From Clytia hemisphaerica (lineage: Eukaryota > Cnidaria > Hydrozoa > Leptothecata > Clytiidae), in contig CACVBU010001357.1 of the NCBI GenBank assembly GCA_902728285.1, positions 176,719 through 240,718 of the forward strand: a DNA stretch of 64,000 nucleotides. The letters are read 5' to 3'. Position 1 is the stretch's first letter. Every line of letters begins with the position of its first letter. A program made the position numbers and the translations under genes. The notes beneath the pieces were generated by a model. The model was not told the DNA's origin. It worked only from the letters and a program-made list of their open reading frames with translations, and ran no database searches. Shown here in pieces: positions 199 through 63,934 of this stretch.

Positions 199-453
199 AC
201 ACGTTTTTTTTTATAAGAACAAACTATATAAGAACATAAGGCTTCGAGGCCCAAAAATTTAAGAACATTCTAAGAACATACTAAGGCTTTGGAGACTTAA
301 AAACATGCAATTTCTTAAGAAATTACATCAAAATGCTCAAAAAATGCTGAAAATAAGAACATTTTAAGAACATTTTTAGGCTTCCAATCCAAAAAACTAA
401 GAACATCCGAAGGCTTCGAAAATTTTTGACGTTCTTATAAAAAAAAAACGTGT
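199..453. mobile_element. Fold-back element, T-run family, AAGAACAT word
   Basis: Short inverted-repeat element. The ends read ACACGTTTTTTTTTATAAGAAC on the left and its near complement on the right (GTTCTTATAAAAAAAA then ACGTGT). The interior repeats TAAGAACAT about seven times, usually followed within 10-15 bases by an AGGCTT-type motif. No protein is encoded. Related elements are at 3437, 5846, 23634, 60740, 61956 and 63423. No clear target-site duplication was seen. Confidence 0.75.
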
Positions 454-3436
454 AAATCGCCAAAACCAATTGGCGGGTTTTGAATTTTAGAGGCTCTAAA
501 TTTGCATCTGAAAGTATTTCTGATATAAGGCTGATAAATAATGGTAAAATCTTTACCATAAATTGAACCCGGATGAATAACAGTCAGCCACTACATCAGA
601 CAATATCAAATGATCTTTCAAACTTCTACATTTACAAAGTAAAAATATGCTTGTCTCAAGTAATAGACTACCGGTATCCGTTACTTTGCTTTCAAGTCAA
701 GTACTTTGATAGTGATAGTCATGATATACATTCGCTATCGCATTACTCACCAGAAGAAAATATCACAAAAAATAAAAAAAACTTTCTATAAAGAACCAGT
801 AGCTTGTCAACAGGATATCAGGATGTAAGATCGATGGATTCATTCAAAAAATGTATTTCTGATAGGATTGGTACTAAGCAAACAAAAAGTATAGCATGAC
901 AATTCAACTTTTTAGTCCTAAATACCATCTTGTTTATTTAGCACTTTCTCAATTAAATTCAGATAGCAAATTGAAATTTTTTGTCAAAATTGTAAAACGA
1001 GGAACTTTTGGTCCTTTACTCCAAAAACGGCAAAAATCAATGAAAGATAGTTCGGTTAAAAATCTACAGAATTGAATTGAAATCTTCAAGTCTAAAACCA
1101 CAAGCGTTTAAAATAATTCTATGCAACTTTACATAATAGGCGTAAAAGCCATTGCACCGTCAACGCGCTACTGTCCCACACGGCACACAACGTCAAAACA
1201 ATGTCCATGTGACATTCATAACGTTCAAATAACGTTATTTGAACGTTAAAACAACGTTGTGTGTCAGCTGGGGTAGTATTGATAATTAACTTCAATCTAA
1301 AACACAAGGGTTCTCTCACGCAGCACCGTAAAAGTACCTTGGGATCAGACTTGTACGTTTTCTGATTGTCTCGATCTCAATATCTTATCGGTAAACTACG
1401 TGATAATTAAAGATAATCAAGATTAAACAAATAGGCGGAATCTACGACTGATAATTGACTATGGTGAAACGTTATCTCAAACTAAGATATTAGTAGTGTT
1501 TATATCGTACTAAACTCGTCTTTTTTGCTTAGGACCCTTTCACTTCAAATATCAATGTATACATTTATAAGTTTTAGGCTGATTTGACTCTGGTGTTGAT
1601 TCCTTCTTTAGAAGAGAGAAGTTCGAAATGAAAATGAAATTAAAAGAGATCAGTTGAAAATCAATATCGTTCAAATTTATATGCAATTATAAATCTAAAT
1701 TACACATTTAATTGTTCATAAATTGATTTAAAACTAGTTATCTAGAGAGACGGAACCATTTTGAAGAAAAATGGAGGTCTTTAGAACAATTAAATAAACC
1801 GACATTTTAAGGTTCAATCTTTCAGTCTCGTACCCCTCAAAGTAAGTTATTTGTTTGAAGAGTGCATTTTTCATTTCAAAAAGATTATATTTCTAGCATA
1901 TTTTAAAAGAGAAAAAAATATCATAAATTGGTAAATTACGGTAAAGAGTATTTCCTTGGTTTGGTATTTTTTTTTAAACGATGACTTACCAGAAAACTTT
2001 GTGAATGACTTTAACGTGAATTAGTAGCATAGATCAATAAATTTTTGCAACAATAAACTAGTTTTTGATCTGCTATTTTGAAAAGTGCCTTCAAATCTAA
2101 TTGAGTGTATACCTCAAAAAGTAATTTTCAAATTAATTTCACTTAATAATTTTTAATTTCCGAATAATTAATTGATGGCACCAGAATCAAACAGATGTTG
2201 AAAATCAAACATAACCGCTACAATGATGGCGTCTACCACAATTTGCATACATATTTTGAGTATCTTAAACGAGAGCTATACTTATGCTAACGTTTATCAA
2301 AGCATCAAAGGGTCTGAAATTTCGTGCAATTTTTTTAATGTTTCATAATGACCCTCGCCAGCTCCCTGCTGGAGTCAACTTTGCGAATTGAGATTTTTCC
2401 AGCCAAAAGCGTCACTTGCCGTTGGGTCTTCCTCAGATCAAGTTATTTCATTTATCCATACCGTTGATTCTATCATGAAATATAGAATGATTCTAGATCT
2501 CAAATACTCACATGTAGTCTGCTTTACGATCCAAACGCTCCCATATCATAACTGATTAAGCAAGCTATCAAGGATTTTCTAGTTATTAATATTCTAAGCT
2601 TTCTCTAAGTAACCACCCAAGAAAATCTTTACCATTGAATGATCAGGCCAGCCCATATGATATCAAAAATAAACATTTGACAAAAGCGGAATACTTATTC
2701 TATATCATGTATTGACGTCATAGTTCGAAAGTCTCTTGTAAATTCAATTTATAGAATCCATCATTGTGAATACCTTACAAACTGCCGCCATGCTCTATAT
2801 TTGACAAACATCACTGCACTACTGTTTTCTATTTAATGATCAAAATGGAATCAAAATTCCTATGATCATTTATTCTGATATCACTTCGATCTGTTTTCTT
2901 ATCTTTCAAACCTGTTTATGCCAAATTTTCGATAAAGACATTCTCATAGCCTGAATGACCAAAATTGCATATCAATTTAACATCCTTTCTTCAACTCTGT
3001 CTCATCTACACATCAAGAAAACCTTTAATGTCAACGGGTAATTCATTGTTTCATTTTAACAACGCAAATAAATAGAATACAATTAGAATATCCCTTTTAA
3101 TGTTACTTCATAGGGAACAACACTCCAGCACTCCAACATTCATGCTAACCGTCATTTCAGGTTTTAGATTTCTCTCTCTCACACATGATAAGTACCATTC
3201 ACAGGCACTTTAGTTGTCCAGCCAATAATAATCCTGTCAGTGCGATACAGTAAAGAAGATGATCAAATTTCAGGCGCCTCAAATGCATTAAAAAAGATAC
3301 ATAAAGGAATACCACCGTTAGTTAAAAGCTAAGGGAAATAGCAACATGTTAACAGAGTTTAGAGATAGGTTTAAATCTAGGTTGGGAAAAGATATTTCTT
3401 TTGTAAAATATTGCGATGTTTGTGAACAAATGCACT
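454..3436. other. Intergenic, no gene recognised
   Basis: AT-rich DNA with only short, composition-driven open frames. It holds the AACGTT hairpin at 1174-1272. A stretch near 2385-2450 (CCGTTGGGTCTTCCTCAG) faintly resembles ends of Penelope-like elements but is too short to call. Hidden small exons cannot be excluded. Confidence 0.5.
1174..1272. mobile_element. Small hairpin element, AACGTT word
   Basis: About 100 bp with imperfect inverted ends: CCACACGGCACACAACGT on the left, and ACAACGTTGTGTGTCAGCTG on the right. The centre is the palindrome AACGTTCAAATAACGTT followed by its complement. AACGTT recurs several times, and a possible fragment of the same family lies near 30165-30205. It is probably a MITE; the transposon superfamily is not determined. 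Confidence 0.6.
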
Positions 3437-3695
3437 ACACGTTTTTTTTATATAAGGAACACGTTTATAAGGAACTCGAGGCTGAAAATGGTCCAAAAAA
3501 TAAGGAATTGTTAAGAAACTGCTCAGGCTGAGAACAAGGAAACAAGTTTTAAGGAATCAAATTTTTGCGAATCCAAACTTAACAGCTATGTAAATAAGGA
3601 GCTCGATAAGGAACTTTGAGGCTGAAATTCTCTGTAAAAATAAGGAACTCCAGGCTCACAGCAAAGTTAAGGTTCCTTATCAAAAAAAAACGTGT
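3437..3695. mobile_element. Fold-back element, T-run family, AAGGAAC word
   Basis: Inverted ends ACACGTTTTTTTTATATAAG and (A)nACGTGT. The interior repeats AAGGAAC or AAGGAATT about nine times, interleaved with GAGGCTGA or CAGGCT. It is closely similar, in opposite orientation, to the copy at 60740-61010: both translate to the same short stretch ([12 protein letters not shown]), which reflects shared descent rather than coding. Confidence 0.78.
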
Positions 3696-4701
3696 ACTCT
3701 TATGTCCACATGCTATTGGATATTATTTAAGCAGATTACAAAGCCATGCAGTAGAGTATCTCTTCAAAGAATATCTTTCTTCAAATGTTTCATACCATAC
3801 AATACAAAACATTTCATACTTGAGTGCCAAAACCCCGCTACTAATCACCCTGTCTCACCATCAAACAATACCAAAGCAATTCTGCATCCTCCTTTACCTC
3901 CTCTTGTAATTTTCCTAAATAAGTGAAGATTTTTCAATAGCCTCCAAAATATTATGAAATTCCAACCTTTTATTTGACATTTTAAGTTTTTAATGAACTA
4001 ATGAATTAATACAATAATGACTGGTTAGTCTGCAAACCAAGTGTACAATCAAGGTCGTAATATTTGAGAAAAAAGGGAAATCCATCGGGAAGTTTTGTAA
4101 CCACAATCGATTTGTAAGTGCTCTAAAGTACGTTCGAAAGGTAGAGTTTTAACTCTGAGTTTTAACGCTAGACCAGAGATTTGAGAAAAGAGGATAAGAA
4201 ACGCCGCTGCCGCTCGCTGTTTTCCTATTCTTTCCCTTTGAATTCGGCACCCTTTGAAGAAGCAAGGCTGTAGAATAGTTGAGCAAGAAGGAAGGCCGAA
4301 ACAAAATGGCGTTACGTACAGGTTAACCAATGTTCAAGAAAATAGTCCTTGAATAAAGCTTTCCAGTGAGTTAATTGTGAAAAAGAGACTGGGGTGTGAA
4401 TCTTTGATCTTCTGGGAGTTTCCCCTGAGAAAATCGAGGAAAATCATTCTATATTCTGGGAGTAAAGATGGCGGACATGAGGCATGCTTGAAATTTTGAA
4501 AAATTTGGACCAATTTCTTTCTGGGTTGTACTGCTCTGAATGAATTTTTTGTGTTGCAGACATAATTTGTATGGGTAGTAGGAAGGTTGATTGTGACCAC
4601 CTATGCCTTAGTCTTCCTGGGCACTCTCTAAAACTTCTCGGCATTTTGATTTAAGATGGGCAAAATCGATTGATAATTTTGTTTTTTTTTTCAACTTTTA
4701 G

Positions 4702-5371: not shown

Positions 5372-5845
5372 ATGTTTTCTGGACAACCGTGGATATGAAC
5401 AGTTAGAACCTGGTTGAGCACCGTCCTTTGAAATTGGACATATACTTGGAAAATGTTCTCTGGAAAAAGTGGATTTCCATATACGCATTATGTAAATTTG
5501 GTCAGTCTGGAGAATTTTTATCGAATCTGTTTTTATTTGGATGTTTGTTTTGTATCCAGGTTGTCCCTGGAAAGATGGTCCAAACAAGTCATCAGAGCCA
5601 GGAAACATGTGGGCCAAAATTACCAAATGTAAACAAACTAGGAGACCCCAAAAGTGCTTCTATTTAAATTCTACAATTCTACTTGAACACATATTTTCAC
5701 TTATTGTTATGTAACAAGTTTTTCTGAGGCTGATATTATTTTTCCAATATTTTTTCCAACACATCTGTTGAATTTAGTCCTCTATGGAGCAATGATATAA
5801 TTTTCTAGTCCAGCTTTCAAGTTATACAATCTGAATCAATGTACT

Positions 5846-6000
5846 ACATGTTTTTTTTATAAGCAAGTGTCTGTCCCTATGCCAGGCTTGCATTATGCTT
5901 AGTATTCTATTGTTCTCAAACAATAGAGCCATTGTTTAGGTACCAAAAACTGAGCCTGCATATGCTTATAAACGTTATGCTTATAAAAGAAAAAACATGT
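5846..6000. mobile_element. Fold-back element, T-run family, AAGCATA word
   Basis: About 155 bp. Ends are ACATGTTTTTTTTATAAGCA and TTATAAAAGAAAAAACATGT. The interior carries TATGCTTA or its complement repeatedly, with AGGCTTGC and GAGCCTGC motifs. It has the same architecture as the copies at 199 and 3437, but a different word is used throughout. Confidence 0.65.
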
Positions 6001-7847
6001 AATTAAAAATCAGTTGGAAGGTTTTAGTCTTTTTTTATAGTCTTCTCAATTTTATTTCAATGGAAAGTCATGAGTGATATTGATTTTTTTTTTCATGCAA
6101 TACATCTTTATTTTTCCAGGTTTATAAATGAAGGTCAATCATAAAAAACCCTTTTGCGTTTAATTTAATCTTTTTTAGAAAAATTTCAAACCATTTTTAG
6201 CAGCATTTACAAATTAAAAGAGTTGCATAAATGTTTTCTACTAAGAGAAGGATATTTTTAATTTTTAATTCTCATGCACTTTTATACTGTTTTATTTGCT
6301 AGGTAGATATTTCATTATATCAAGGGAAATCCCTAGATGGAGCTGTTTTGTATAACTATTGTATTTTTTTCAATAATGTTTTTGGATTATTTTATGCTTT
6401 ATTGTTTCGAGTTCACATAAAGCTCTTAAAAGAAAGATTTCATGATATTTGTAATCTTCTAGCATTTATATCATGAATTATCATCGCTTCTTTTTTCTTT
6501 CTTTCTTTTGAGCTCTATTTTTGTCCTGTTTCCAATTTGTTCTAATACCCAACATCACTACCCGGCTGAAGAGGCCTCCATGATATTGTTTCTTAGAAAC
6601 TCTAGTCCAAGAAATAACCAAAAATTATCCTAGTCTTACAAGCTTATCATTTTTGGTTTTATAATGTGAATTTCAATTCTTTTAGCTACAGTATGTATAA
6701 ATTGATTCGGTCATTCTATAAGGAAAATATTTTGGTCAAAGCTGGGAAATTCTCCCCTTCAAGCACAACGACGAAGGCTTGAGAAACACTGCGTTCAAAG
6801 TGAAAAGTGCTTATAAAAAATATCAAAATCCGCGATTTAAAAAAAAAATTATTTCACTTTCGATATCAATCACGGCTGCCATTTTTTGTTTGTACTTCTA
6901 GTCTTGTGCGCATAACGAATCAAGCGCTCTGATTGGTCCAGAATAAAAACAATCGATCTGCCGCAGACATTTCAATAGAAACAAAAGATTCTACAGCCTA
7001 GCTTCAAATAGATGAATACCGCATTTCTTATCCTCTTTTCCCAAATCTCTGGCTAGACTGGATCTGAGGATTCAAAGTTCAAAAATAGTCCAATAAGGCT
7101 AAGAATATAGCCTGGAAGTCTGCCAACCCCTCTCAAATTGAAATATTCGATTAAATTAAAGAGATAGCCCAAAATCGACTTTCTCGCCGGAACTTTAAAT
7201 CTTGAAAAACGTTAAAATAAACGGAATTCTCATTATATTTCAACCATGATTGTAGATGTCTTACATTAAGGACAACACAAAAGTGAAAATTGAGAAACAT
7301 TAAGAAATATATCCGGTAGAAAAGATCATTCCCGCCAACGAACCATGAACTCTTATCAAATACAACAGAAGTGCTTAAACTCTTCCATCAAGCAAGAGCA
7401 GTTTGACTAAAATAAATTTGTCGGGACTTGCAAAAGGCACTTTTCTAGCCTCAATCAAATGTTCGAAAACAAAAGGATTTCAGAAATCGTGACGGAAACT
7501 TTCTCAGTAACAAATCCTTACAACACTTCCACCTAATAAATCAAAAAAGGCAAAAATGCATTTTGATGTTTTTGAAGGTTACGTGTGCAGATAATGGAGC
7601 CCTAATGGAGTATTAATTCTTCAGATTGATTGAGTCTTAGATTATTCTCGCACTTTTGAACGTCTTGTTTGTTTGACAGATTTAAAAGTCATTTGTAACT
7701 GCCGTCACAATGCAAACATTCTTTCGAATAAAAGGACCTTGACATACTATACTTTTGAACAGTTTTGAAAAACTCGATATCTGAAAAACCAAACAAGGAA
7801 TAGCAAAAGTGATCAGAATACACCTTTTCGACCGTAGCCGCCAATTG
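6001..7847. other. Intergenic, no gene recognised
   Basis: No supported gene. 7025-7062 (TTATCCTCTTTTCCCAAATC) is the inverted match of 4168-4203, so fragments of one repeat lie about 2.9 kb apart in opposite orientation around the 4.7-5.4 kb exons. Whether they bound one element is unclear. Confidence 0.45.
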
Positions 7848-8215
7848 CCGCGCAGCCCCGGGGGGGGGGGGGGGTACTAGGCTTGCGAGGTGACGGGTAT
7901 GTCTGAGCCGAAAATCGAGAATCGACCCTTTCAGAGACAAAATTTTGGTGATTTTGGGACCACTTTTTCCTAAATTTTGGTCCATTTTTTCCAAATTTTG
8001 GTTTGATTTTCACCAAGTTTTGGTCAAAATTTTTGGAAATCGTGACCCTTTGAGAGAGAAATTTTTGATTTTCGTGATTTTGGGACCCTTTCAGAGACTA
8101 ACTTTTGAATTTGTACCCCTTTGAGAGACTTTTGAGGAATGAGAAAAGGTACCCTTATGGCTCGCACATACCCGGCACCCATTTTGCCTAAGTACCCCCC
8201 CCCCGGCCGCGCGGG
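7848..8215. mobile_element. G-run fold-back element, CCCTTTCAGAGAC word
   Basis: Inverted ends: CCGCGCAGCCCCGGGGG ... GGTACTAGGC on the left, GCCTAAGTACCCC ... CCGGCCGCGCGG on the right. The interior repeats GACCCTTTCAGAGAC or GACCCTTTGAGAGA about four times, and GATTTTGGGACC. Open frames crossing it are proline-rich translations of the G-run and are not genes. Confidence 0.7.
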
Positions 8216-9865: not shown

Positions 9866-11220
9866 TCAAAATAAAAAGTTTTCCTTATCCATTTGTAAAT
9901 CGACTTTAACATGAGTATAAAGTTGTTTTTCTTCCACGCTTATCAACCCATATTGAAGGGAGTTCAGACCATCATCTTTCCAAAATTTTGTAGAGTTCCA
10001 AAGTTTGTAATTCAGTTTTTGTTGAGCCTCAATGTCACGTTTGGTGTAGCCATTCCGTGGATGGTTCATCATCGTATATCTTGCAGTTTTTATAGACTGT
10101 CTATGAACATTGAAACCATTCATTCGAAGTCTCCAATAAATATTATCATCTTCGCCTCCCCAGCCATAAAACAGATTTGTAGCTCCGTTAATTTTTCGGA
10201 AATGACTTGATAACATCGAGGATACACCACCGAAGATTTCCTTATATGGTAATATGTATCGGAAGATGTTGACACCCACTGATAAATGCGTTGGAGATGT
10301 TTTGCAACCGTAATCGATTTTATCGTTTTCAGGCAGAAGATCAACATCATGTATAATAATGCATTGATATGGGAATAATTTCAAACCTTGATCAAATCCG
10401 ATATTGAGTAGTTTAGCTCTATTGAATTTATCTTGGTCATTCTGTTCGACAACCATGATGCGATAGTGTAAATTCTGCCGCTTTAAGATTGGATGTAACT
10501 GTCGTAGAAGGATAGGTAATTGCAATTCACGGTTTCTGAAAGGGATTACAATCAAAGTGGATTGTCTTGGTTTACAATCTTCAGGTTGCCACCATCCTCC
10601 TTTCTTGACAAACTTGAGCTCGTTCTCATAAAGCCATTCTAACGAGATCTCTTGTTGTAAAACAGCGAGCGGTCCAATAAGAGAAGTTTTGTTGCATTCA
10701 ATTGCTTCACCACAATTCGTTTTTATGTAAACATCAATCTCTGGGCTGTGTTGTGAGACATTGTTGCTCTCCAGCCAGTTATTGAAATCCTTAGAGCAGC
10801 TACTTATGTTTACTGTGGAACTCAATTCATTAGAATGTATCTTTTGAACCAATTCTGATGTTTCATTAGTGTTGATTCCGGTGGAATTGTCTCGTTTAAC
10901 ACTGAGCAACTTACTTTGGATAAAAGTTGAAGAAATTTTTGCATCGAATTATCTGTGTTATGTTGCATCTGTTTCAATTTTGAATCAAATTTCTCATTCC
11001 TCTTCATAATAAGTTTACCGATTGCTTTTACCACGGTCTCGGCGTTAAGCGTTGGCTGATCATGGCCTGGTTGAACCACTTGGATGTTTCGGACATTTTG
11101 ATATTCACGATTTAAACAAAATATTGAATCTTTAAAAATTGTCACTGTCAGAAGAATGAAGAATAAAATGAAAACTTTTGAATTCGAACTCTTCGCGGTG
11201 ATAGAAGTGACTTGGACCAT
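9866..11220 (-). pseudogene. Beta-1,4-galactosyltransferase-family gene, frameshifted copy
   Basis: Second member of a tandem pair. The N-terminal part (ATG at 11218-11220) has a short cytoplasmic tail, one signal anchor (VFILFFILLTVTIFKDSIF) and a stem, and stops at 10822. The catalytic part is open in another frame from about 10909 to 9866. It has IPFRNRELQLPILLRQLHP, FNRAKL, the metal-binding DVD, YGWGGEDDN and the Met/His pair in MMNH. The frames overlap around 10822-10909. Both copies keep the same SV(L)NET stem motif, so an indel between there and the catalytic part is the simplest explanation. A GTAAGT sits at the spot, but no acceptor restores the frame. It is either a recent pseudogene or a sequence error; the catalytic motifs are intact. 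The predicted location is the Golgi membrane. Confidence 0.85.
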
Positions 11221-11943
11221 CTTGGAGGCCTTACTTTAAATAATACCGAATCTACGATTCTTTATCATTATATCTTTAACCTTGTTTACCACTTGCCAAG
11301 CTCTCTCACGGAAGTTTATCACATTTTCACACGTTTTGTTAGCAGAAAATTCTTTATACTTTATCAATTATCAGAATCTTGCAGTTGCCAAGTGATATTC
11401 CATTGAATTATTCCGCCTTCTGGTGTTTTAATTAAGCAATGGTTGCAAAATTTACTGAAAAAAGGTGTCTTTATTACTTCAGTAGACAAAAGACACGAGA
11501 ATGTGAGAGACCGGCCTCCCTAAAAGTTCATATTTTACATTTTTCAAGTAATGAAATGTTAAGTTGAGACTCGTAAGATTCGAGATAAATTTAGTGAACA
11601 TTCTTAGTCATCAAACCACGATAATTCCAAGCCAAACGGGAAAATTGTCTCCAGTGGGGGCTTTCATAGTCCTCATAGTACCTTTCTTATCAGGAGGGGG
11701 GTTTAGTATGAGAGAGAGAGAGGGATTTAAGGTATGTTGTAATATGTCTGTGATACAGGGTAGCTCCAGCTGTATAGAGAAGTGTGAAGCAAGGATTTAC
11801 TCTATAAACAGTGGCAAAAATAACTAATACAATTTTATGTCCCTTTGTTCAAAATATTTTTTTAGTATCTCTTTTCTATCCTAAAACTGAAAATAAAAGT
11901 GTCTTAAAAATATACCCTAAAATTTCGGACGCAAGCACACAAA
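11221..11943. other. Spacer between the two glycosyltransferase copies
   Basis: 723 bases that contain the promoter side of the left copy and the 3' side of the right copy. No further gene was seen. A GAGAGAGAGAGAG tract lies near 11710. Confidence 0.5.
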
Positions 11944-13359
11944 CTAAAATAAAAACTTTTCTTTATCCATTCTTAAGTTTGCTTTGACGTGAGTATAAAG
12001 TGGCTTCTCTTCAACACTAACCAAGTCATACTGTAAAGTGTTCAGACCATCCTGAGCAAAATACCGATTGGAGTTACTCAGCTTTTGATTCAGTTTCGAC
12101 TGCTCGTTTCCAGTTGGCCGGTTTTTATTTGAATGTTTCAGCATTTTGTATCGTGCAACTGAAATAGAGTGTCGGTGTACCGTCAGTCCGCTCGCCCGTA
12201 ACCGATTATACAAATTATCGTCCTCGCCACCCCATCCGTAAAATAGATTGGTAGCTCCGTTAACTTGCCGGTAATGTTTGGACCACAAGGATGAAACACC
12301 ACCAAAGATTTCCTTATAGGGGAGAATATACCTCATAGTGCTTACACCTGCTGATAAATGTTTCGGCGAAACTTGGCAACCGTAATCGATTTTATCGTTT
12401 TCAGGTAGAAGATCAACATCGTGTACGATGAAACATTGATATGGAAATAATTTCAAACCTTGATCGAATCCGATATTGAATAATTTAGCTCTATTGAATT
12501 TATCTTGGCCAGTTTGCTCCACCACTAGAATTCTGTAGTGTAATTTCTGCCGTTTTAAGATTGGATGTAACTGTCGTAGAAGGATAGGTAATTGCAATTC
12601 ACGGTTTCGGAAAGGGATTACAATCAAAGTGGATTGTTTTGGTTTACAATCTTCAGGCTGCCACCACCCTCCTTTCTTGACAAACTTGAGCTCGTTCTCA
12701 TAAAGCCAATCTAATGAGACATTAGCTTCATTTACAGCCAACGGACCAATCAAACTTGAGGCCGTTGAGCAATTCTGTATATCTTTAGCAGAGCAATGCG
12801 TTTTACGGTAAACGGCAAACTCTTCATTATCTGTTGGTGAATTTTTCGTATACCACTCTTTAAAGTCATCAGGACATCTTCCATGACTCTTAGTTGCGTC
12901 TGTAACTAAATCTTTTATTGGCGGTGGCCGATAATTATCTCTATTCTTCAAGGTCGTTTCGTTAACACTTTGAATCATATTGGTGAATAAATTCAAGATA
13001 TTTTGTAGTGAATTCTTAACATTGCTTTCGATCCCTTTTGCAGTCTCTTTAAGCTTGGAATCCAAAGTAAGTTGTGTCTCTACCTTTGTCTTGTTGAAGA
13101 CCTGTTCAATAGCACTCATCGATAAAGTAGGCCGATATTGATGGCCCGGTTGAACCAGTTGTATGTTCTTCACATTGCGATACTCACGATTGATGCTGAA
13201 TAATGAATCTTTGAAAATGATAATCAAAAGTAAAAATGCAACTACAAAGAATAATTTGCCTTGAGAATTCGACATTGTCTGTTGCCCAATCATGATTTTG
13301 TTTTCTTTCTCCTCTTCTTCTTGGCTCAAACTGGAAAGGTCTCTTTTTGGTTGTTTCAT
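11944..13359 (-). CDS. Beta-1,4-galactosyltransferase-family enzyme (GT7), likely GalNAc donor
   Basis: Single open exon of 471 codons plus stop; the first ATG in frame is at 13357-13359 (MKQPKRD). Type II membrane topology: about 35 cytoplasmic residues, a signal anchor (KLFFVVAFLLLIIIFKDSLF), a stem of about 150 residues with N-glycosylation sites, then the GT7 domain. Family motifs in order: GGWWQPEDC, IPFRNRELQLPILLRQLHP, VVEQTGQDKFNRAKL, HDVDLLP (Mn-binding DVD), GGVSSL, FYGWGGEDD (acceptor Trp and catalytic acids) and KMLKH (metal Met and His). The residue matching Tyr289 of bovine B4GALT1 is Ile in KEIFGGVSS. In insects and worms Ile there goes with UDP-GalNAc use, so a beta-1,4-GalNAc-transferase activity is inferred. 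It acts in the Golgi on GlcNAc-ended glycans. Confidence 0.93.
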   Translation of the reverse strand: MKQPKRDLSSLSQEEEEKENKIMIGQQTMSNSQGKLFFVVAFLLLIIIFKDSLFSINREYRNVKNIQLVQPGHQYRPTLSMSAIEQVFNKTKVETQLTLDSKLKETAKGIESNVKNSLQNILNLFTNMIQSVNETTLKNRDNYRPPPIKDLVTDATKSHGRCPDDFKEWYTKNSPTDNEEFAVYRKTHCSAKDIQNCSTASSLIGPLAVNEANVSLDWLYENELKFVKKGGWWQPEDCKPKQSTLIVIPFRNRELQLPILLRQLHPILKRQKLHYRILVVEQTGQDKFNRAKLFNIGFDQGLKLFPYQCFIVHDVDLLPENDKIDYGCQVSPKHLSAGVSTMRYILPYKEIFGGVSSLWSKHYRQVNGATNLFYGWGGEDDNLYNRLRASGLTVHRHSISVARYKMLKHSNKNRPTGNEQSKLNQKLSNSNRYFAQDGLNTLQYDLVSVEEKPLYTHVKANLRMDKEKFLF

Positions 13360-13860
13360 TAAACGCAAGGTACATCTAATTTAAGTAAAAGTTTGTTTCC
13401 TAGCAATTGAACGCTAAAATATGTAACGCATAGACTACATTTGCCTTTCTAGTTTACAAGGTTCTATTCATAACAATTAAAAAGCGGCCTTTCATTAGCA
13501 TTTAGCACTAATTTAAGAATTAATGTTGCTTGATTTGGAATGTAATTAAAGGTTAAAGCCCATAGTAATCTTCCTTATGAACCAACGTTTCCAAGTAATT
13601 CAAAGAGTCGGAAGTAGAGTGAAGCAATTCAATTCTAATCAAAATTATTTACCATCCAGTTTTAATGTTGAAATTTTGATTTAGCGAATGAATTCTAAAT
13701 ACATAGGGAACATATTTCATACATTTTAATAAGAACCAGAAGGTTTCGAAGGCAAAAAATTCAAGTCATTTAAACTAAAAAAGTTAACTACACCCAAAAA
13801 TAACTTGAAGCATATTTTAAAAACGAATATTTGTGTAAATTTAATAATTATTTGATGGGT

Positions 13861-48182: not shown

Positions 48183-49642
48183 ATAACTCCCGCTGAAAAT
48201 ATTCACACAAAAACAAATAGAGAAACATTTTTCGATCATTTTCGATCAGAAGTTTGTTTTGAAGAGTTGCAGATTTTTCAGAAATGTATTTGAAAGTTCT
48301 AGATTGATAATTCAAATGCAGATGACGTACAGTATTGTTTCGATAGAGAGGAAACCCTCCATCATTGGATTAATCAGATTGATAACATTCAGTCTTTTTC
48401 TATGTTTTTGTTTCAATGACATGGCCATGGGAAAGAATAGCAGAGGAAAGGAAGTCCCACGATGGAAATGTATGCTTGTAATAATGGTTAAAGAACAACA
48501 TTTTTTCAACAGCAAAACAATTTGGATGCTTTCTTGATTATCGTCAAGCTCTAAATGTTTCGAATTTTAGAAGAAAGATGTACTGTGTAATGATTGTTGA
48601 GTTGAAAAGTCAAGGACGTACGTTGTTGTCGAGAACGAGAATTAGGAGAGAACTTTTATAAAAATCACTCGTCATTTGGTTTAATACAAGACATTACACT
48701 TACCTTGTTATGTTATGAGAAATTTTATTGGCAAATATTGAAGAATCTCAAGTTTTTTTGTATGCATTGATAAAAAACTGTTTGGTTATCACACGGACAA
48801 ATTTGCCAAAAGTTGAAAATATTTGGGTCGTGTCAAGTAGTTTTATAATTAATTCTCTGTTCATCAGATTTGATTTTAGTGTCTTTTATGGAAGAACTCC
48901 AAAGTAAAAGTTAATCTGAACATATTTTTGTTGCGTTTTTCCCTTTGATTCCCAGCCAAGTCCTGTTTTGTTTTGATTTTTCTCCCGCCGCTTACCCAGT
49001 CCCCCAAAGTCAACGCGGTCATATTTCCAGACTAAAGAAATATGAAATATCGCAAATATCTCGATGCTCTCGACCAATCAAAACGCTGATATTTTTTTGG
49101 GTCGGCAATAAAAACTAAAATAAACTAACCCCTCTAACCAGGCTGTAAGAATCATCAGTTAGGATAAGAATTTTATTGTTTAAAAGACAGATTGTATCAC
49201 TTTGGATGCAACAGCTTGTAATTCTTTTCATCAGAAGGCAATGACAAACATATACCTCGTTCTAACTTGAGATATCAAAGACGAACTATCCTTCTCACTA
49301 ATTAAAACAATACTGATTTTGAACAATAGCTTTCTTTACATTAGCTATTTCAATATTTGTATAACTTAGTGGTCATAAAATTCTCCTCTTAGAAAGTAGG
49401 GAAAGTACCCATGAATTTGAATAAAATAATTCTTTATTGATAGAAACATAACAGTTCTTTTTTCTGAAAACTATCGAAACTAACAACCTCCAAACTTCCC
49501 TACATACTTGATAAGCAGGGAAAGTACCTTCAATTGGAAGGGGGAACTTTTCAATACTGTCAGATACTGTAAGCCATAACAAGGAAATCTTTCCTCATCA
49601 AAATCCTGAAATTTGAAGACAAACAAGCAACATGCTGAATGG
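48183..49642. other. No gene recognised
   Basis: About 1.5 kb of AT-rich sequence with short open frames on both strands that overlap each other and show no family. Nothing can be supported as coding. Confidence 0.4.
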
Positions 49643-50933
49643 ACCTACCTGACGATGAAACTTAGATAGCAATAAGGAGAAAAACAATCATTAAGAAAAT
49701 AAAGCGCTTAGCGAAAATGCATTAAATGTCATCATTGATTGTTAATAGGGGGGGAGGGGTTTAGGGAAAAAAGAAATAGAAAGTTCCGGTTGCAAAATTG
49801 CAAAAGTTTTATTGACAATTGAATCATGCTTGATGGTGGCATTGTTATCAATAACTTTTTTAAGTGAAAAAACAAAGAAATGTATGGAAAAAGCCCAATT
49901 CAAATCTGCAAAAACGGCGATTTCCGGCATTTTCGGCCGGAAAAATCTTTTTCTCAAAAATCGGACTCGGCAATAATTTGGGCATTGTTGATACGCATCT
50001 TTGAGCAAAAAATCAGCAAAAACTAATGATAAAATCTCGAGAAAATGCCAAAAAACAGTTTTTCCGGCATATTTCCGGTATTTTCGGCCGGAAAAAATGT
50101 TTTCCCAAAAATCGGACTCGGCCATGTTTTGGGCATTGTTATTAAGCATCTTTGAGCAAAAAATCAGAAAAAACTATTGATAAAATCTCGAGAAAATGCC
50201 AAAAAAACTGTTTTTCCGGCATATTTCCGGCATTTTCGGCCGGAAAATTTTTTTTTCTAAAATCGGGCTCCGTCACATTTTAGGTATTATCATTTTGCAT
50301 CAGTGTGCAAAATTTCATAAAAAAATATAAAGTACAGCTCGAAAAATCAAGAAATACTGTTTTTTCCCGGCGAAAATGGGCTGCACCGGGGATTTTTAGA
50401 AAGTTCCGGCTTCAAAACAGTTCTATGACGATTGAACATACTTCATGGTGGGCATTGCTATTAATGATGTTTTTGTGTGAAAAACAACGAAATATAAGGA
50501 AAAAGTCCGATGAAATCTGCAAAAATGGCGATTCCGCATATTTCCGGCATTTTCGACCGGAAAAAAATTTTTCTCAAAAATCGGACTCGGCCAAGTTTTG
50601 GGCATTTCTAATACACATCTTTGTGCAAAAATTCAGAAAAAAACTAATGATGAAATCTTGAGAAAATGCCAAAAAACCGTTTTTTCCGGCATATTTCCGG
50701 CATTTTCGGCCGGAAATAAATTTTTTTCGAAAATCGGGCTCCGTCACATTTTGGGCATTACCATTTTGCATCATTGTGCCAAAAATCAGAAAAAACTAAT
50801 GAGCCAATCCTGAGAAAAGCTGGTAACAGACGGACGGACGAACGAACGGACGGACGGACGGACGAACGAACGGACGGACGGACGGACGGACATCGGTTAA
50901 TTTATAGGACCTCTACCCCACCGGGGTCGGTCC
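49643..50933. mobile_element. GGACCTACCT-ended element, second copy with CCGGCATTTTCGGCCGG array
   Basis: Left TGCTGAATGGACCTACCTGA, right CACCGGGGTCGGTCC. The body has about four or five units of roughly 170-180 bp with TTCCGGCATTTTCGGCCGGA, TCGGACTCGGCCA, TTTTGGGCATTG and GCAAAAAATCAGAAAAAACT. It ends in a (GGAC)n/(GAAC)n tract and TTAATTTATAGGACCTCTAC, as in the copy at 44181. Confidence 0.72.
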
Positions 50934-51319
50934 AAAAATTAAACAAATGTACCATATTCAGGGCCTGAGTACTTGAAGAAAAATTGAAATGATACCCACC
51001 CCACCCTAAAATTGGTACCGGGTACTAACTTAAAATTGGAGATATACCCACCCCCACCCCAAAATTAGTACCGGGTACTAACTTTTTTGAATTTCCAAAT
51101 TAGACACCACCACCCGGCTATGGGTTAGTACCCTGCGGCTGTACCCCCCCCCTGGTGCTCTATACAATGATCGGTATTTTTTTTAAATTCTATGTTTAGA
51201 TTTTTCTACCCAGCCCTGTTGTTATGAACGTGCATCCTGTTGCTAAGACCTTTGCTTGAAATCGAAAGCAAAATATTATAGCACACACTGCCAAGTGCGT
51301 AATATCGATAAAGTGAAGG

Positions 51320-53625: not shown

Positions 53626-53631
53626 TCAAGA

Positions 53632-58742: not shown

Positions 58743-61700
58743 CCTTCCTTTCGATATTCTGTTGATTTTGCCAGTGGCCAACAGCAATCATGGTAAGTAT
58801 TTTACTGCTAAACTCTAAAAATTCGTTTATTCACTCTGAAATACTGTTTATTTACGAAAGATTAATGGTTTTACTGTAATATTTACGAACTATCAGGTAA
58901 CCACGATCGATTATTCCAGAGATATTGACGGATTGATGATGTAGGGTAGTTTAGTTTATGTCAATCACAGAAGTTGTCATCCGCTGGAAATCTTCTAACT
59001 AAATCTTAAAGAATTTTTTCATTGACATTTTCTTAACCTGATAACAGCTGTTCATAATTTTTTTGTACAGTAAACCTCTGAAGGGGCTTGAAAATTAAAC
59101 ATTAGAGGAAAAAGTCCTCTCGTGCAAATAATCTTAATTTTTTTGTTTTTCCGGTCCACTGACCAGGTGAAAATTTCCTTTGTCGTTAGTCAGGGGCAAA
59201 ATTCTTTGTCATACACCATTGTTTGTCTATTGTGTAGACTAGACAAACTAGGCTGACTTAGTTCTTGTGTATAGTTTGTCCAGTGGTGAAAAGTGTAATC
59301 ATTCAACAGCAGACATCTCACGTCTGGTGGTTCCTGATCGTGATTTGATGTCTTGAAATTTAGATTTTTTAAGGGTTTATTTATGATCTATTCCAGACCC
59401 CCGCGCTCGATAGGATCGATCATCGGAACGGCTCGATGACGGATCGATATGTGATCGATGGATTACTTATCGATCTGGATAGGAGATCGATGGAAGATTC
59501 AGCCATTAAAAAGTCTTGAGTATCGATCCTTCGTTGATCCATTATCGAGCTAGTATTTCAATCGAGTATATCGATTTGTCATCGATCGTTAATCGATTCG
59601 TCATCGATCGTTAATCGATTCGTCATCGATCGTTAATCGATTCGTCATCGATCGTTAATCGATTCGTCATCGATCGTTAATCGATTCGTCATCGATTATG
59701 ATCGATCGTCGATGAATCGATTACGATCGAGACAAATCGATAGAGTCGCTAGGGTCGATAAGATCGATAAAAGATCGATGAACGATGATAGATCGATGTC
59801 TTTTAAAAAATCTTGAGTATCGATCCTCTATCGATCTCCTATCCGGATCGATAAGTAATCCATCAATCACATATCGATCCGTCATCGAGCCGTTCCGATG
59901 ATCGATCCTATCGAGCGCGGGGGTCTGGTCTATTTTGGAATGCATGGATAGATCCAATTTATTGCTTAGTATAGTTTGTATCACCTTAGCAACCCTAAGG
60001 AAAAAAAAAATTGTTATTAATTTCGCCTAGGCCAAACAAAAGAAGTCTTGTTCCCGGAAATCGGTCAGGTGAACCTATTTTTGAAAGTCACCCGGCCGCA
60101 AAAATAATTAGTGGCCAAAATGTGGCGGAGCCCGATTTTCGAAAAAAAAATTTTGGGCAAATTTGGGCCAAAAAACGGCTAAAAAACAGGTTTCTTGGAC
60201 TTTGTGAAATATTGGATCATTGTTTTTTTCTGATTTTTTGCATGAAAGTAGGTAAAAGATGGCTCAAGCAGATTTTTGTAAAAAAAGAATTTTTCAGCTT
60301 AAAAAACCCATCTTTATCTATAAGAATCACTATTAAAAAGAAAACATCAATGTTCTTATCCGAATTACTGAATTTATTGATGAGATAGATGTTTTTTTTG
60401 CTCACGAAGTCTTAATTATGAAAGAATATTTCAAGAGAATGAAATTTTGGTTCCTGAACGTTTTTTTTATAAGAAACAAACGACTAATTTAATAGATCGT
60501 CACTATTTGTGTTCTTTGTTTAATGGTCACGTCACGTAGATATCAATTATAAATGTGTTAAATGCATAACCAGGTAGGTCCATGAAAGTATCACTTGTTT
60601 TTCTTTTATGCTCTCAGAAATTTTTTTTTTTTCAAACTCAATATTTCAGACAACAAAAAGCAAAACGTTTTCTCAAGAAAACGAAAGTTTTATAACAGAG
60701 TAAATAATATACAGCCAAGACGAACAGACGTTCTTAAATACACGTTTTTTTTTATATAAGGAACCTTAACTTTGCTCTGAGCCTGGAGTTCCTTATTTTT
60801 ACAGAAAATTTCAGCCTCAAAGTTCCTTTTGAGTTCCTTATTTACATAGCTAGTTCAAGTGAAAACTCTTACTTTTACTGTTCCTTAAAAGTATAAAACT
60901 TGTTTTCTTATTCTTAGCCTGAGCAGTTCCTTAACAATTCCTTATTTTTTGGACTACTTTCAGCCTCGAGTTCCTTATAAACGTGTTCCTTATAAAAAAA
61001 AAAAACGTGTATTAGTATTGTATAATATTTGTGACCCTTTCTGAGATATTCTATGGGGCAAAATAATGGCGTGTAGGCATTTCTTTTGGCGTTCTGTGAA
61101 CAAGTGATCAATTCAATTTAACCAATCAATGCTAACAATCCCACATCCAGGCAGTTTTTTTCTTATAAGCAAGGATTTATTATACACTGGATATACAACT
61201 AACAGATTTTTGCTGATTTCTCGTGCACTAGCTATGTCCGCAGTAATAAAAGTATTGTTCACTCTCCTTCCCTCATTAAATGATTTTTTGAAGCATTTTT
61301 ATTGCATTTCTTATCGAAAATCACTTATCAAATTCCCAAAAGAGACTTACAACTTTCCTGTGAGAGTCGAATTCTTCCACTTAATTGATAATTATAAGTC
61401 ATTATGACGTTTCAAGCTGTGAGAAAGATGCAAAAGACGTGTTGTATATAAGAAATTTAATGTTGACACCGGAAATTTTCAAACTTCAACCTCAAAAAAA
61501 CCACCTTGCCACCACGTGCCTCCATAGGATTTTCATACCACAGTGGAGCCAAGAAACTCGAGTCTTATGTATGTTAATAGCTCTTCTGGGAACAGCCTTG
61601 GGAAGATATTTCCAATTCAAAATTTTGTGTCACTATAAGCATTTTGGCTGGATTTCTTGTCTAATGATGTTTTTCACACATTAGATTTCACAACTGTATC

Positions 61701-63934
61701 TGGCTTGGAATACTAGCCTTGCTTTCAAACTTTTTTCTGCAAATGTACAAAAAGAAAGAGCTAGAGAAATTTTTTAAAATAAGACAGATAAATATTTTAA
61801 AAAATCAGACATCTTCGAGCCGCCATGACAGTTGTCCTTTGCGGACAAAGCTAGAACATCAATTGTTTTCTGAAACAAAGGAAATACAATGATTGCTCTC
61901 CATCGTTTTATGAGTCGTTTATCCAGTGTATAATAAATCTTTGTTATAAGCATATACACGTTTTTTTTTAAGAAACACGAGGCTCAGAATGGGCTTTTCC
62001 AGAAAAAATTCGTTCATGGGGGGTGGAGGATATATTATTTTTTCTGTGATCTACCCCTGGACATGTCGATTTTACACCCCCTGGACATGTGTTTTACCCC
62101 TGGACAAGCATCAAGTTGACCCCCTGGACACAAATATTTACCCCTGGACATCGCAGATTTACCCCATGGACATGGCAGTTTTTCAGTATTTTTTCAATAC
62201 CCCTGGACAATATATCCTCCACCCCCCATGAATGTTTTTTTTCTGGAAGAGCCCAATGCCTAAAAACTAAGAAACATGCTGAGGCTGAGAATGAGAAAAT
62301 AACATTTTTTGATTCGGTTTTTTTAAAAACCTTCCAATCCAGCCTTCTAGTAGGTTAATTATGTCAAAAAGTTTAGAAACATGTAAGAAACATTTAAGGC
62401 TAAAAAGGCCAATTTCTTAAGAAACATTGAGGCTGCTTGGTAGGACTAGTTTCTTAAAAAAAGAACGTGTACTTCATAAAAATCAAATTAATTACTAACT
62501 CTTGATAGACAGTGACATACCCTTCGGTTAGTAGTTCTTAAGTAAAAGGGATGACGTGCAATATGAGCATATTTATTTTTCTTATAAGCATATACTTCCG
62601 GAGAATCAAATCATTAACTCTTGATAGGACGGTGATATGACCTTTTGTAATTATTTCTTACAAATTAAACAATCCTTTTCTTAAATTGGTCTAATTTTTT
62701 AGCGATTTTGAGCCTCGCTGTTCTTTTAAAATTGTTCTTTCAAAAGAAAAGTGTATGGATTGCAGTTCATTAAAGTGAGATAAAGTAAATATTTATGTGT
62801 TCTTTTCATCAAGGCTCGATGTAAAGTACATTAAAGGAAGAAATTTTGGCGAGTGGCTGAAAAAGTTTTTTCGTAGGGAATTTAATTTGGTGGATCAGGG
62901 AAAAGCTAATTTTGGCAAGAATTTAATTTGGAAATCAGGGATCCGAAATCAGCGTGAAAACATTGATGTCAGGGTAAATTATGAAAAATCAGACATAAAG
63001 AGGAAAAACTTTAATTTGGCAGGAATTTAATTTGGCAGATGGTGGAAAAAATTTAATTTGACAGGAACTTAAAATTTGGCAGATTTTGGGCAAATCTGCA
63101 AAATTTTCTTCGCGCAAAAATTTCTTCCTTTAATATAGTTTTCAGATTAGCTTCCATCTCTACTTTTTGTTTTTTCCCATTCAGTTTAAATTATGGGCAA
63201 AATTTTTGACTTCAAGTCGTCTTGTTTTATCTTAAAAAACAACAGAATTAAAAGATTTTCAATTTTCCAAGGTTCTTATTTTGAGATCGAGCCTTTATCC
63301 TGTGGACGACATTAGCAAAAATTAGCTGTAGGTGAGATTTAATAAAAGGAAGTGCTGTTGTTTAAAAGTCAAAAAGTTAGTAGCACTTTTGAATTGATCA
63401 AAGATCTGTAGTTAAGATTGCTACACGTTTTTTTTTTTTTAAGAAACTAGTTTTACCAAGCAGCCTCATTGTTTCTTAAGAAATCGGCCTTTTGAGCCTT
63501 AAATGTTTCTTACATGTTTCTAAACTTTTTGCCACAATCGGCCTCATGGAAGGCTGGATTGGAAGGTTCTTAAAAAATAACGAATTGAAAAATGTTATTT
63601 TCTCATTCTGAGCCTCAGCATGTTTCTTAGATGTTTCTTAGTTTTTAGGCATTATGAGCCTCATGTTTCTTAAAAGTGTGTTTCTTAAAAAAAAAACAAT
63701 GTGTAATTAGAAATGTAGAAGATTGCTCAAAAAAATTATCAAGCAAATCTCTCTCTTCACGGATCTTAGACTTTATTGTGGATAACTTTTCAAATGATTT
63801 TCACCAGCATAATTTTGTTTTTATTTTAAGAGTTCACACAAGACTTTCATCATCAAGCGAAAGTTGGCTAAGAAGATGAAACAAAACAGACCTGTACCTC
63901 AGTGGATCAGAATGAGAACTGGTAATAAAATCAA
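58743..63934 (+). CDS. RPL39: Ribosomal protein eL39, 5' part (runs off the window)
   Basis: Exon 2 (63831-63934) is certain: [20 protein letters not shown] then [14 protein letters not shown], the highly conserved eL39 sequence, between TTTTATTTTAAG and GTAAGT. It starts at codon 2 in phase 0, so exon 1 must end exactly with ATG. ATG followed by GTAAGTATTT occurs at 58790-58792, and CCTTCCTTTC at 58743-58752 looks like a 5' TOP tract at the cap site. I therefore infer exon 1 there, giving a 5038-base intron that holds several repeat elements. eL39 lines the exit tunnel of the large ribosomal subunit. The last third of the protein lies beyond the window. Exon 2 about 0.97; exon 1 assignment about 0.55. 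Confidence 0.85.
59393..59928. mobile_element. 536-bp palindromic element built of ATCGAT words
   Basis: Ends CCAGACCCCCGCGCTCGATA and TATCGAGCGCGGGGGTCTGG are perfect inverses. Arms are about 118 bp with few mismatches. TCTATT flanks both sides (59387-59392, 59929-59934), a 6-bp target duplication. ATCGAT recurs throughout. The centre (59571-59700) has five copies of a 22-bp tandem unit, TCGATTCGTCATCGATCGTT then AA. Lies in the proposed RPL39 intron. Confidence 0.88.
60115..60581. mobile_element. Reverse-oriented partial copy of the GGACCTACCT element
   Basis: GTGGCGGAGCCCGATTTTCG, TTTGGGCAAATTTGGGCC and TCTGATTTTTTGCATGAAAG are the complement of the array unit at 44.3-45.4 kb. The right edge CAGGTAGGTCC matches the left terminus of that family. 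The left edge is uncertain. Confidence 0.6.
60740..61010. mobile_element. Fold-back element, T-run family, AAGGAAC word (reverse copy)
   Basis: Ends ACACGTTTTTTTTTATATAA and TTATAAAAAAAAAAAACGTG then T. GTTCCTTA recurs about eight times with GAGCCT or CAGCCT. It is the inverted relative of 3437-3695. Confidence 0.78.
61956..62471. mobile_element. Fold-back element, T-run family, AAGAAACAT word, carrying an insertion
   Basis: Ends ACACGTTTTTTTTTAAGAAA and TTTCTTAAAAAAAGAACGTG then T. AAGAAACAT recurs with TGAGGCT. 61991-62254 is a different element inserted into it; removing that leaves a body collinear with the inverted copy at 63423-63704. Confidence 0.78.
61991..62254. mobile_element. Nested inverted-repeat element, CCCCTGGACA word, AAT duplication
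   Basis: About 44-bp inverted ends: GGGCTTTTCCAGAAAAAATT ... ATGGGGGGTGGAGGATATAT on the left, ATATATCCTCCACCCCCCAT ... TTTTCTGGAAGAGCCC on the right. AAT flanks both sides (61988-61990, 62255-62257). CCCCTGGACA recurs about seven times inside. The 3-bp duplication and GGG start would suit a PIF/Harbinger-like MITE, as inference only. Confidence 0.85.
62472..63422. other. Intronic sequence, no gene recognised
   Basis: Contains the phrase GGAATTTAATTTGGCAGAT and variants several times (62876-63080: AATTTAATTTGG at six or so sites), another interior-word pattern without defined ends. CTTCGCGCAAAAATTTCTTC near 63108 pairs with GAAGAAATTTTGGCGAG near 62838. Confidence 0.45.
63423..63704. mobile_element. 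Fold-back element, T-run family, AAGAAACAT word (reverse copy)
   Basis: Ends ACACGTTTTTTTTTTTTTTA and TTCTTAAAAAAAAAACAATG then TGT. ATGTTTCTTA recurs about five times with GAGCCTCA. This is the unbroken counterpart of 61956-62471 in inverse orientation. Confidence 0.78.

Follow-up and report, generated by a model that had tools for sequence, protein, structure and literature searches.

Family-specific word arrays on a shared layout in TA-flanked MITEs of Clytia hemisphaerica, read as candidate sites for a protein of shifting specificity

Do the many small foldback elements in this part of the Clytia hemisphaerica genome share one design, and what could have produced it? In the 64,000-nucleotide stretch analysed here (the window), the initial annotation had described at least ten inverted-repeat families, held to be unrelated, in which a short family-specific word recurs at irregular spacing, and had proposed either template switching that copies end sequence inward or a single machinery that needs many binding sites. 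Our analysis partly confirms the observation and partly supports its interpretation; for one group of elements, many sites for a protein of shifting specificity appear to fit the sequences better than inward end copying.

The supposed lack of relationship fails for five of the eleven words. AAGAACAT, AAGGAAC and AAGAAACAT belong to one MITE group with ends TACACG-T(n)-TAAG and TA on both sides (the TA group), and the two CCCTT words form a second related pair, whereas target duplications and ends do differ among the others. The window contains the following members of the TA group:

198 to 454, forward strand: family A element with TA at both ends and the terminal inverted repeat (TIR) CACG-T(n)-ATAAG; TAAGAACA(T) at seven sites, plus the variant TAAGAAATTA and the right TIR; second word of the GGCTTCGA type at four sites
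23641 to 23844, reverse strand: older, truncated relative of family A, with word and first offsets as in A
3436 to 3696, forward strand: family B element, word TAAGGAAC, second word of the GGCTGA type, single deviating site TAAGAAACTG
60739 to 61011, reverse strand: second family B element
61955 to 62471, forward strand: family C element, word TAAGAAACAT, interrupted by N1 (61990 to 62255), one of the first two words absent
63422 to 63705, reverse strand: family C element with the full layout, second word of the GGCTCA/GGCTG type
5845 to 6001, reverse strand: family D element, TIR TACATG-T(n)-TAAG, TAAGCATA twice with a gap of 15
43797 to 43894, reverse strand: TA-group relic, profile match (E 5e-6)
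62685 to 62753, reverse strand: TA-group relic, profile match (E 1e-6)

The remaining word-bearing elements of the window are:

7856 to 8206, forward strand: P, a poly-G ended inverted-repeat element with degenerate ACCCTTTCAGAGAC at four sites, flanked by the imperfect 8-bp duplication CCGCGCAG/CCGCGCGG
43947 to 45759, forward strand: Q, related to P, with words of the ACCCTTACAGTGCA type, interrupted by about 1.4 kb of inserted sequence and flanked by an 8-9 bp duplication (AGTTAAAG as the 8-bp form)
61990 to 62255, forward strand: N1, nested, with seven ACCCC(C)TGGACA-type words in a single direction
31190 to 31394, reverse strand: N2, a diverged relative of N1
28212 to 28580, forward strand: R, with GCCCCCAG words, bounded near 28212 on the left, its right end not fixed
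47178 to 51154, forward strand: S, 4 kb, with AGTACCGGGTACT words at both ends and the 7-bp duplication GTGCTCT at 47171-47177 and 51155-51161
25591 to 25900, reverse strand: X1, CCCACTGG family
33358 to 33600, forward strand: X2, CCCACTGG family
59393 to 59928, no strand assigned: T, with long inverted repeats around a 22-bp tandem repeat packed with ATCGAT at its centre, flanked by the 6-bp duplication TCTATT
31689 to 32458, no strand assigned: W, TTAA-flanked, ends CCCTATT, three TGACGTCATCA-like sites
62831 to 63133, no strand assigned: U, absent from the initial annotation, TTAA-flanked, AATTTGGCA six times forward and once reverse

Recurrence was measured as the count of the commonest 9-mer, with at most one mismatch and on both strands; using the maximum over all words already pays for the choice of word. 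The 18 items tested from the annotated list, whole elements or halves, each had two nulls of matched length: 60 dinucleotide shuffles and 60 background stretches. The count was far above chance in 12 of them (A1, A2, B1, B2, C1, C2, P, N1, R, S1, S2 and T, with values seen in neither null), borderline in Q (1/60 shuffles, 3/60 background) and X2 (1/60, 6/60), and within chance in D (8/60, 13/60), N2 (5/60, 19/60), the first 700 bases of W (19/60, 9/60) and X1 (30/60, 47/60). The proposed check against shuffled sequence thus upholds recurring interior words for most, not all, of the elements, and D and TGACGTCATCA in W were dropped as word arrays for lack of excess. W has a copy at 91% in genomic sample C594, and the four word sites in related sequence of W lie at positions that are at least partly inherited. 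Among 11 control inverted repeats, three reached 0/60 in both nulls, namely element U and two short near-palindromes, and two more reached 1/60 shuffles and 0/60 background. As literal strings the words had been overstated, exact copies in the 64 kb being few (CCCTTTCAGAGAC twice, CCCTTACAGTGCA once, AGTACCGGGTACT three times); it is degenerate forms that recur, and in P the commonest word, AAATTTTGG in both directions, differs from the one named before. The words are nonetheless properties of families, since related copies beyond the window also bear them: 9 of 10 such stretches had 0 or 1 of 500 shuffles as high, and a fragment of P had 13 of 500. The placement of words in foldbacks holds only as an enrichment: in 264 kb, a detected inverted-repeat pair enclosed 40 of the 103 overlapping 240-base windows that had at least six non-tandem word copies, and 225 of the 3167 that had fewer. 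The majority of the word-rich windows lay outside any detected fold.

A single machinery for all families is not supported by the flanks, which show TA, TTAA, 8-9 bp, 7-bp and 6-bp duplications, unclear ones also occurring outside the TA group; on these and on the differing ends we reject one common origin for every listed word. The elements beyond the TA group are a mixture of kinds. P and Q have aligned ends in common and differ in their words (AGAGAC-type versus AGTGCA-type), and a complete relative of Q with four exact words was found in a genomic stretch. R, in which no inverted repeat was found, had 365 first-look candidates, and 27 of the 40 matches listed begin at query base 23. S is read as one 4-kb element and contains nested repeats. 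T, with 106-nt arms at 96% around its tandem array, is more aptly called a foldback that contains a minisatellite. For the words of P/Q, N, R, S, U and X a binding-site reading is possible, and less supported than in the TA group, which the idea of a machinery with many sites does fit.

As MITEs, families A, B, C and the additional family H are about 257-285 bp long, with TIRs of about 20-30 bp, a target duplication and many similar copies; most words lie between the TIRs, and word 1 of each family also lies within them. TA stood on both sides of 8/8 A loci and 20/20 C loci examined, all occupied sites and the window copy among each, and at the ends read for B and H. H was detected outside the window, in sequence flanking an A copy, by a profile of A, B, C and a further outside family, G; it is a genome-wide family. 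Each of A, B, C and H had more than 1300 first-look candidates, with 40 scored: 1978 in A (41 at 97-100% among the matches listed, query included), 1374 in B (39 other places at 93-97% among the matches scored), 1345 in C and 2834 in H (the 40 places scored all at least 94%, query included). G combines word 1 of A with a B-like second-word spacer (identity 0.75 to B, 0.62 to C and 0.46 to A, for one spacer compared), and is a partial case of an intermediate subfamily that keeps its spacers under another word. A two-word pattern for the B/C group occurred 1073 times genome-wide and 0 times in the control, and 32 of the 36 places displayed carried the same word twice, 4 being mixed.

The four families share one layout. 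Successive gaps are 15, 31, 11, 44, 39, 11 and 33 in A; 15, 33, 11, 38, 45, 12 and 34 in B; 15, 32, 11, 57, 49, 11 and 34 in C; and 15, 33, 11, 37, 57, 11 and 34 in H, so that the first gaps (15, 31-33, 11) and the last (11-12, 33-34) are common; the families also agree in word number, in word order and in where word 2 stands. None of 100,000 random placements came within 2 nt of A at six gaps (three on the left, two on the right, and the distance from the last word to the end). A search for the 15/32/11 layout that ignored the words gave 37 matches. Of these, 33 belonged to the four families and mostly lay in sequence retrieved because of copies of those families; the other four were two N-runs, a simple repeat and a coding-like stretch. 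The search missed G, and six other gap sets gave 2-4 matches each; a mirrored control (36 matches) was not valid, one of its two mirrored strands being a mere complement. Helical phasing is conceivable for gaps of 11, 33 and 42.

What differs is the words. Word 1 is TAAGAACAT in A, TAAGGAACT in B, TAAGAAACAT in C and TAAGAATRTC in H, at nearly all of nine sites. For word 2, A, B and C have a GGCT type and H has an ATGAT type, which is less regular (CATGATG twice, GATGATT once, reversed CATCATG once). With one element per family, word identity is 0.819 for the same family at other positions, 0.704 for other families at the same position and 0.690 where both differ. As strong a family agreement arose in 0/5000 label shuffles (0/20,000 for A, B and C alone; 1/20,000 for interior sites alone), and for word 2 in 1/5000 with H and 90/5000 without H. 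The words thus agree by family, and positional memory is almost absent. The layout is retained, the spacers only partly, and the layout seems to be older than the family-specific words, as families with different words have word order and gaps in common. All forms of word 1 contain the core TAAG, so that the families differ at about five bases only.

Could the words have been copied inward from the ends? Word 1 of every family does recur in its own terminal repeats, and in B a sequence that resembles a shortened end, ACACGTTTA, precedes the second word, so that one copying event at the left end is possible there. However, words 3 to 8 lack the T-run and CACG, words 3, 6 and 8 of A and B come after A-rich stretches, word 2 is absent from the ends and yet family-specific too, and the layout is common to families with different words. 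Template switching from the ends accounts for at most one site and is disfavoured for the rest; as a general explanation we regard it as very improbable.

The gaps themselves raise another possibility, since those of 11 and 33 make a sum of 44 in all four families: the words might be functionless parts of internal minisatellites, in which a 44-bp two-word unit was amplified by slippage or unequal exchange from a founder unit proper to each family, equal gaps then reflecting the unit and not shared descent of the layout. Such structures exist. T has its 22-bp array inside an inverted repeat, and a genomic sample contained several arrays (about 42-46 bp) in which each unit carries two words; two of these arrays are flanked by inverted ends of the CCCAGCAG or CCCGGCAG type. 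The spacers speak on both sides. Their homology by position is moderate (7/576 pairings as good; 32/576 without the stretch up to GGCT), and only 2 of the 4 spacers of B have their best H match at the corresponding position, which counts against shared descent of the layout; but the spacer after the second word is 0.88 identical between B and H, against 0.28-0.53 at other positions. Spacers also differ inside an element, which speaks against recent amplification, and it counts against independent founders that A, B, C and H agree in the gap order 15, 32, 11 ... 11, 33, in word number and in where word 2 stands. We consider this origin unlikely.

The reading that we prefer, with a probability of about 0.6, is that the word arrays of the TA group represent several sites for a trans-acting protein, and that after a shift in its specificity nearly all of these sites received a new word. 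The group (A, B, C and D, with H and G outside the window) would then consist of non-autonomous TA-target MITEs whose interior is a two-word array. Word 1, and probably word 2, would be putative sites of a sequence-specific DNA-binding protein, perhaps the transposase or an element-encoded accessory protein of the TNPA or VANC kind; several sites would be needed jointly, and a new specificity would exchange the words and keep the layout. Word direction relative to the element is largely uniform (A1 8:1, B1 7:1, B2 8:1, C2 8:1, the odd one being the far TIR; C1 4:2). This co-direction of the interior copies differs from the mirror-image ends expected for end recognition alone, and it counts against the reading, as do the narrow differences between the words, the less regular word 2 of H and one or two deviating sites in each family, among them a C-type word in the window copy of B. 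Within C, words vary clearly less than spacers (5/1006 versus 84/3408); the difference is not significant within A (3/1008 versus 24/2897), and within B words are not less variable (6/624 versus 21/1833). A first comparison that had indicated strong word constraint inside A, B and C was discarded, as it counted gaps and T-run length and used copies chosen by first-word patterns.

Uniform direction and irregular spacing also resemble promoter-like arrays, and each word has its separate high-copy family, as might be expected if a host factor bound the words, be it a repressor or a transcription factor that the element exploits, and if word changes amounted to escapes or re-targetings. Terminal repeats of TIR transposons are normally bound by the transposase, and it is in both of them that word 1 lies; moreover, escape would more simply drop sites than swap nearly all of them for one new word. 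A host factor is accordingly an improbable reader of these words. As to an element-encoded protein, transposase genes of the DDE_3 type with open frames are present in the genome, but none of the 115 DDE_3 matches was tied to TA-group ends, and neither an autonomous partner nor a binding protein was connected to them, which counts against our preferred reading. Pfam searches that covered 9 of the 33 listed frames of the window and 10 of the 66 listed frames of the genomic sample gave no transposase, and viral contigs contained no exact match to TACACGTTTTTTTTNTAAG.

A bolder form of the shifting-specificity reading, which we put forward tentatively and hold to be possible rather than probable, is a two-word code: a fixed scaffold of about eight word-1 and four word-2 sites would be read by an element-encoded protein, and each change in its specificity would found a new family in which words are exchanged throughout, word 1 and word 2 independently, before a burst of copies. 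If true, the words that succeed one another on a single scaffold would make a transposon arms race readable. Mutation or repeat homogenisation alone would not easily replace dispersed words in concert and leave the scaffold conserved, so these MITEs would record specificity changes of a DNA-binding protein, and the coevolution of transposon proteins and their sites becomes testable from sequence. For the annotation of repeats, the TA group illustrates that different words in the same design can reflect shared descent.

Several known systems share parts of this pattern. Among the titles listed by literature searches on word-bearing MITEs (at most 12 per search, of up to 29 found), none described an animal MITE whose words change in concert. 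The TA duplication at occupied sites, short TIRs and high copy number of the TA group are those of Tc1/mariner MITEs, from which it differs in its interior word array and in words replaced family-wide. Tetris (PMC4079207) is reportedly a TIR element with internal tandem repeats; T and the 42-46 bp arrays resemble such foldbacks or MITEs, whereas the repeats of A, B, C and H are degenerate apart from the words. VANDAL elements (MULEs) make target duplications of about 9 bp, in place of which A, B, C and H have TA and Q has 8-9 bp. CACTA elements have CACTA ends, where the TA group has CACG. That ordinary MITEs need no interior words does not set these elements apart, as transposons are known whose internal or subterminal parts carry repeated words (PMC5735166; PMC2613891; PMC3688188). 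In Galileo, several transposase sites lie in tandem repeats of the terminal DNA (PMC3688188), to which T is comparable; the terminal repeats of A, B, C and H are only about 20-30 bp. The subterminal direct repeats of CACTA elements (En/Spm, Tgm) are two-part and differ between subfamilies, coevolution with a TNPA-like protein has been suggested, and the target duplication is 3 bp (PMC2613891); the TA group is similar in its two-part direct repeats with a motif that varies by subfamily, and different in its 2-bp duplication and in words along the whole element. The Mutator-like VANDAL/VANC system of Arabidopsis has family-specific short motifs that are dense, non-coding, in one orientation and diverging together (PMC5735166), and the TA group matches it in its motif array of one orientation (4:2 in C1); unlike VANDAL, its elements are TA-flanked, very short and non-coding, with the word inside the TIR and a fixed layout instead of labile tandem repeats. 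The principle known from plant VANDAL and CACTA elements would thereby extend to another lineage and another superfamily.

The initial annotation had described at least ten 'unrelated' inverted-repeat families, each with its own recurring interior word, and had proposed a shared mechanism of origin. This observation captures something real, but the line is drawn in the wrong place. Word recurrence was assessed with the commonest 9-mer (at most one mismatch), found blind to the words of that annotation, in 18 of its elements or element halves and in 11 further inverted repeats as controls; two nulls of 60 sequences each, dinucleotide shuffles and background stretches, were treated in the same way. 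Of the 18 listed elements, 12 lie wholly above both nulls, two are borderline and four do not exceed the nulls; the literal words are often scarcer than implied, standing for degenerate families. Three of the 11 controls also lie wholly above both nulls, including a family at 62831-63133 that had not been listed. A blind scan of the window (300-base steps, at least six word copies) recovers copies A1, A2, B1, B2, C2 and part of C1 of the MITE families A, B and C, together with the repeat elements N1, P, S, T and U. The scan misses elements R, Q, N2, W, X and D, and its output further includes regular tandem arrays, a few words rich in A/T and a pair of related insertions full of repeats.

The claim of unrelatedness holds in part: several transposon lineages contributed the eleven words, yet two of these lineages account for five words, since ends and target duplications, read straight from the sequence, group in this way. 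Families A, B, C and D (the TA group) share ends with TACACG or TACATG, then a T-run and TAAG, and TA is found at both ends in all 8 A loci and all 20 C loci fetched. The ends of P and Q have poly-G and ACT in common, and the stretch ahead of the first word can be aligned in part; the duplication of Q is 8-9 bp (AGTTAAAG in the window, GCTTTTACT in the outside stretch L024) and that of P 8 bp and imperfect. With four words each in P and in a complete relative of Q as its basis, the P/Q pair appears to be another instance of related ends that carry differing words. TTAA flanks W and U, the duplications of S and T are 7 and 6 bp, S1 and S2 are interpreted as opposite ends of a single 4-kb element, and N1 is nested within a C element with AATG, likely its target duplication, on both sides.

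The point of interest is not unrelated families sharing a design, but related families with a common scaffold and a differing word at nearly every site. Split at each word, A, B and C give the same gap series, and most of their words fall in the same MAFFT columns; the six gaps were reproduced in none of 100,000 random placements, and the exact modal A series is present in 18 of 20 A copies, which were selected by a pattern containing the first word. Word 1, which recurs in the interior and in the TIRs, differs between the three (TAAGAACAT, TAAGGAACT and TAAGAAACAT, respectively). One element from each family was compared over nine homologous sites, the right TIR and eight more along the element: word identity is 0.835 within a family across positions, 0.722 at the same position across families and 0.713 when family and position are both different. 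Permuting the family labels within each position gave a pattern as strong in 0 of 20,000 shuffles over all sites and in 1 of 20,000 over interior sites only. Homogenisation of tandem repeats could make words uniform, but is disfavoured because it would drag the spacers along, and near-uniformity within an element is confined to the words. Independent mutation of the sites is likewise disfavoured, as eight sites would not then acquire one identical new word. A common reader of the words, acting through selection, would produce this.

A profile built from A1, B1, B2, C2 and the left part of G, and run over sequence outside the window too, recovered relics at other degrees of decay and a complete element, H, in the stretch L007. 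H has the same layout (gaps 15, 33, 11, 37, 57, 11, 34), with TAAGAATRTC as word 1 and an ATGAT-type word 2 (CATGATG twice, GATGATT once, reverse CATCATG once) where the others have a GGCT type. Its spacer after the second word, GAAAATGGCCAAAAAA, is almost the same as the B counterpart GAAAATGGTCCAAAAAA although both flanking words differ; B spacers find their best match in H at their own position in two of four cases and elsewhere in two. With H added, 0 of 5000 shuffles were as extreme for word 1 and 1 of 5000 for word 2, compared with 90 of 5000 for word 2 without H. In G (contig C594), word 1 is that of A, and the spacer and word 2 resemble those of B, a comparison of one spacer in an element truncated in the alignment; thus the two words need not switch together.

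Spacer homology by position has support, though modest, with 7 of 576 pairings as good, or 32 of 576 without the stretch up to GGCT. Within families, words vary significantly less than spacers in C only, where part of the constraint may stem from a diverged window copy kept in the comparison; fetched copies are best matches, so variation is underestimated. The second word of B is preceded by ACACGTTTA, which would fit a single copying or duplication of a shortened end.

Genome-wide searches used an assembly of 951 contigs (417.4 Mb), in which the window is C927:176719-240718. Apparent introns mark the window as eukaryotic, as do Pfam matches for one 7-transmembrane receptor and a pair of glycosyltransferase-7 proteins, and its gene content suggests an invertebrate animal; the two family 7 genes are adjacent and in the same orientation (9866-13380), apparently a tandem duplication. 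First-look candidates, as distinct from confirmed copies, number 1978 for A, 1374 for B, 1345 for C and 2834 for H, with 40 scored per family; the 40 scored H places, query included, match almost the entire query length at 94% or higher. R has 365 such candidates, with scored copies at 82-91%, and the words of X and U persist in diverged copies. The two-word pattern of B/C form occurs at the proper distance 1073 times (backward control 0); among 36 read in letters, the first in contig order rather than a random draw, 32 have the same word twice and four are mixed, perhaps as genuine intermediates or perhaps through later mutation. Among the A and C matches listed, three same-family MITE pairs lie about 45-85 bases apart (L029 on C300, L024 on C604, and G000:C232:2241974-2242556); the partners face opposite ways in two pairs and the same way in one.

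In T, and in the arrays near 2.7 kb and 31.5 kb of the C594 sample, an internal minisatellite lies between inverted ends. Further repeats observed are:

C594:202720-203080 and C594:231540-231840, AACGTT-rich tandem repeats (unit about 42-44 bp) between CCCAGCAG/CTGCTGGG-type inverted ends
Window 1170-1280, short element with ends similar to the CCCAGCAG/CTGCTGGG type
C419:567170-567395 and C419:568525-568776, two arrays of 42-bp units in opposite orientation, with palindromic TTAACTCGT/ACGAGTTAA words
C419:569469-597474, five long open frames, the longest 927 aa, recurring at intervals of 6.4-7.4 kb, each with D-like sequence about 26-171 bases ahead; the two frames scanned against Pfam gave no match above the cut-off
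Window about 44180-45541 and 49640-50932, a pair of related insertions that are bounded by GGACCTACC/GGTAGGTCC-like ends, contain repeats of about 150 and 320 bp and have a (GGAC)n run close to one end
Window 39897-40575, inverted repeat of 318 nt (96%, loop 43 nt), related to a diverged foldback at 37247-37962
C594:212520-213060, stretch resembling a tRNA, with an array of GAAAGATGATCTTTC-type words behind it, a candidate tRNA-derived SINE with a repetitive tail

Because the word sits in both TIRs, the sequence points to a transposase, or a partner of it, as the putative reader. The genome holds 115 DDE_3 transposase matches, some with open frames, and none of the 115 was tied to TA-group ends. 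Those with open frames on C625, C353, C491, C924, C254 and C248 are mostly spaced about 4.0-4.4 kb apart on one strand, as if whole transposons stood in tandem arrays. The TA group resembles soybean CACTA elements, described as carrying two-part direct repeats, in that the repeat motif varies by subfamily (PMC2613891), and its word arrays may be set beside Galileo, whose repeats are described as holding extra transposase sites (PMC3688188).
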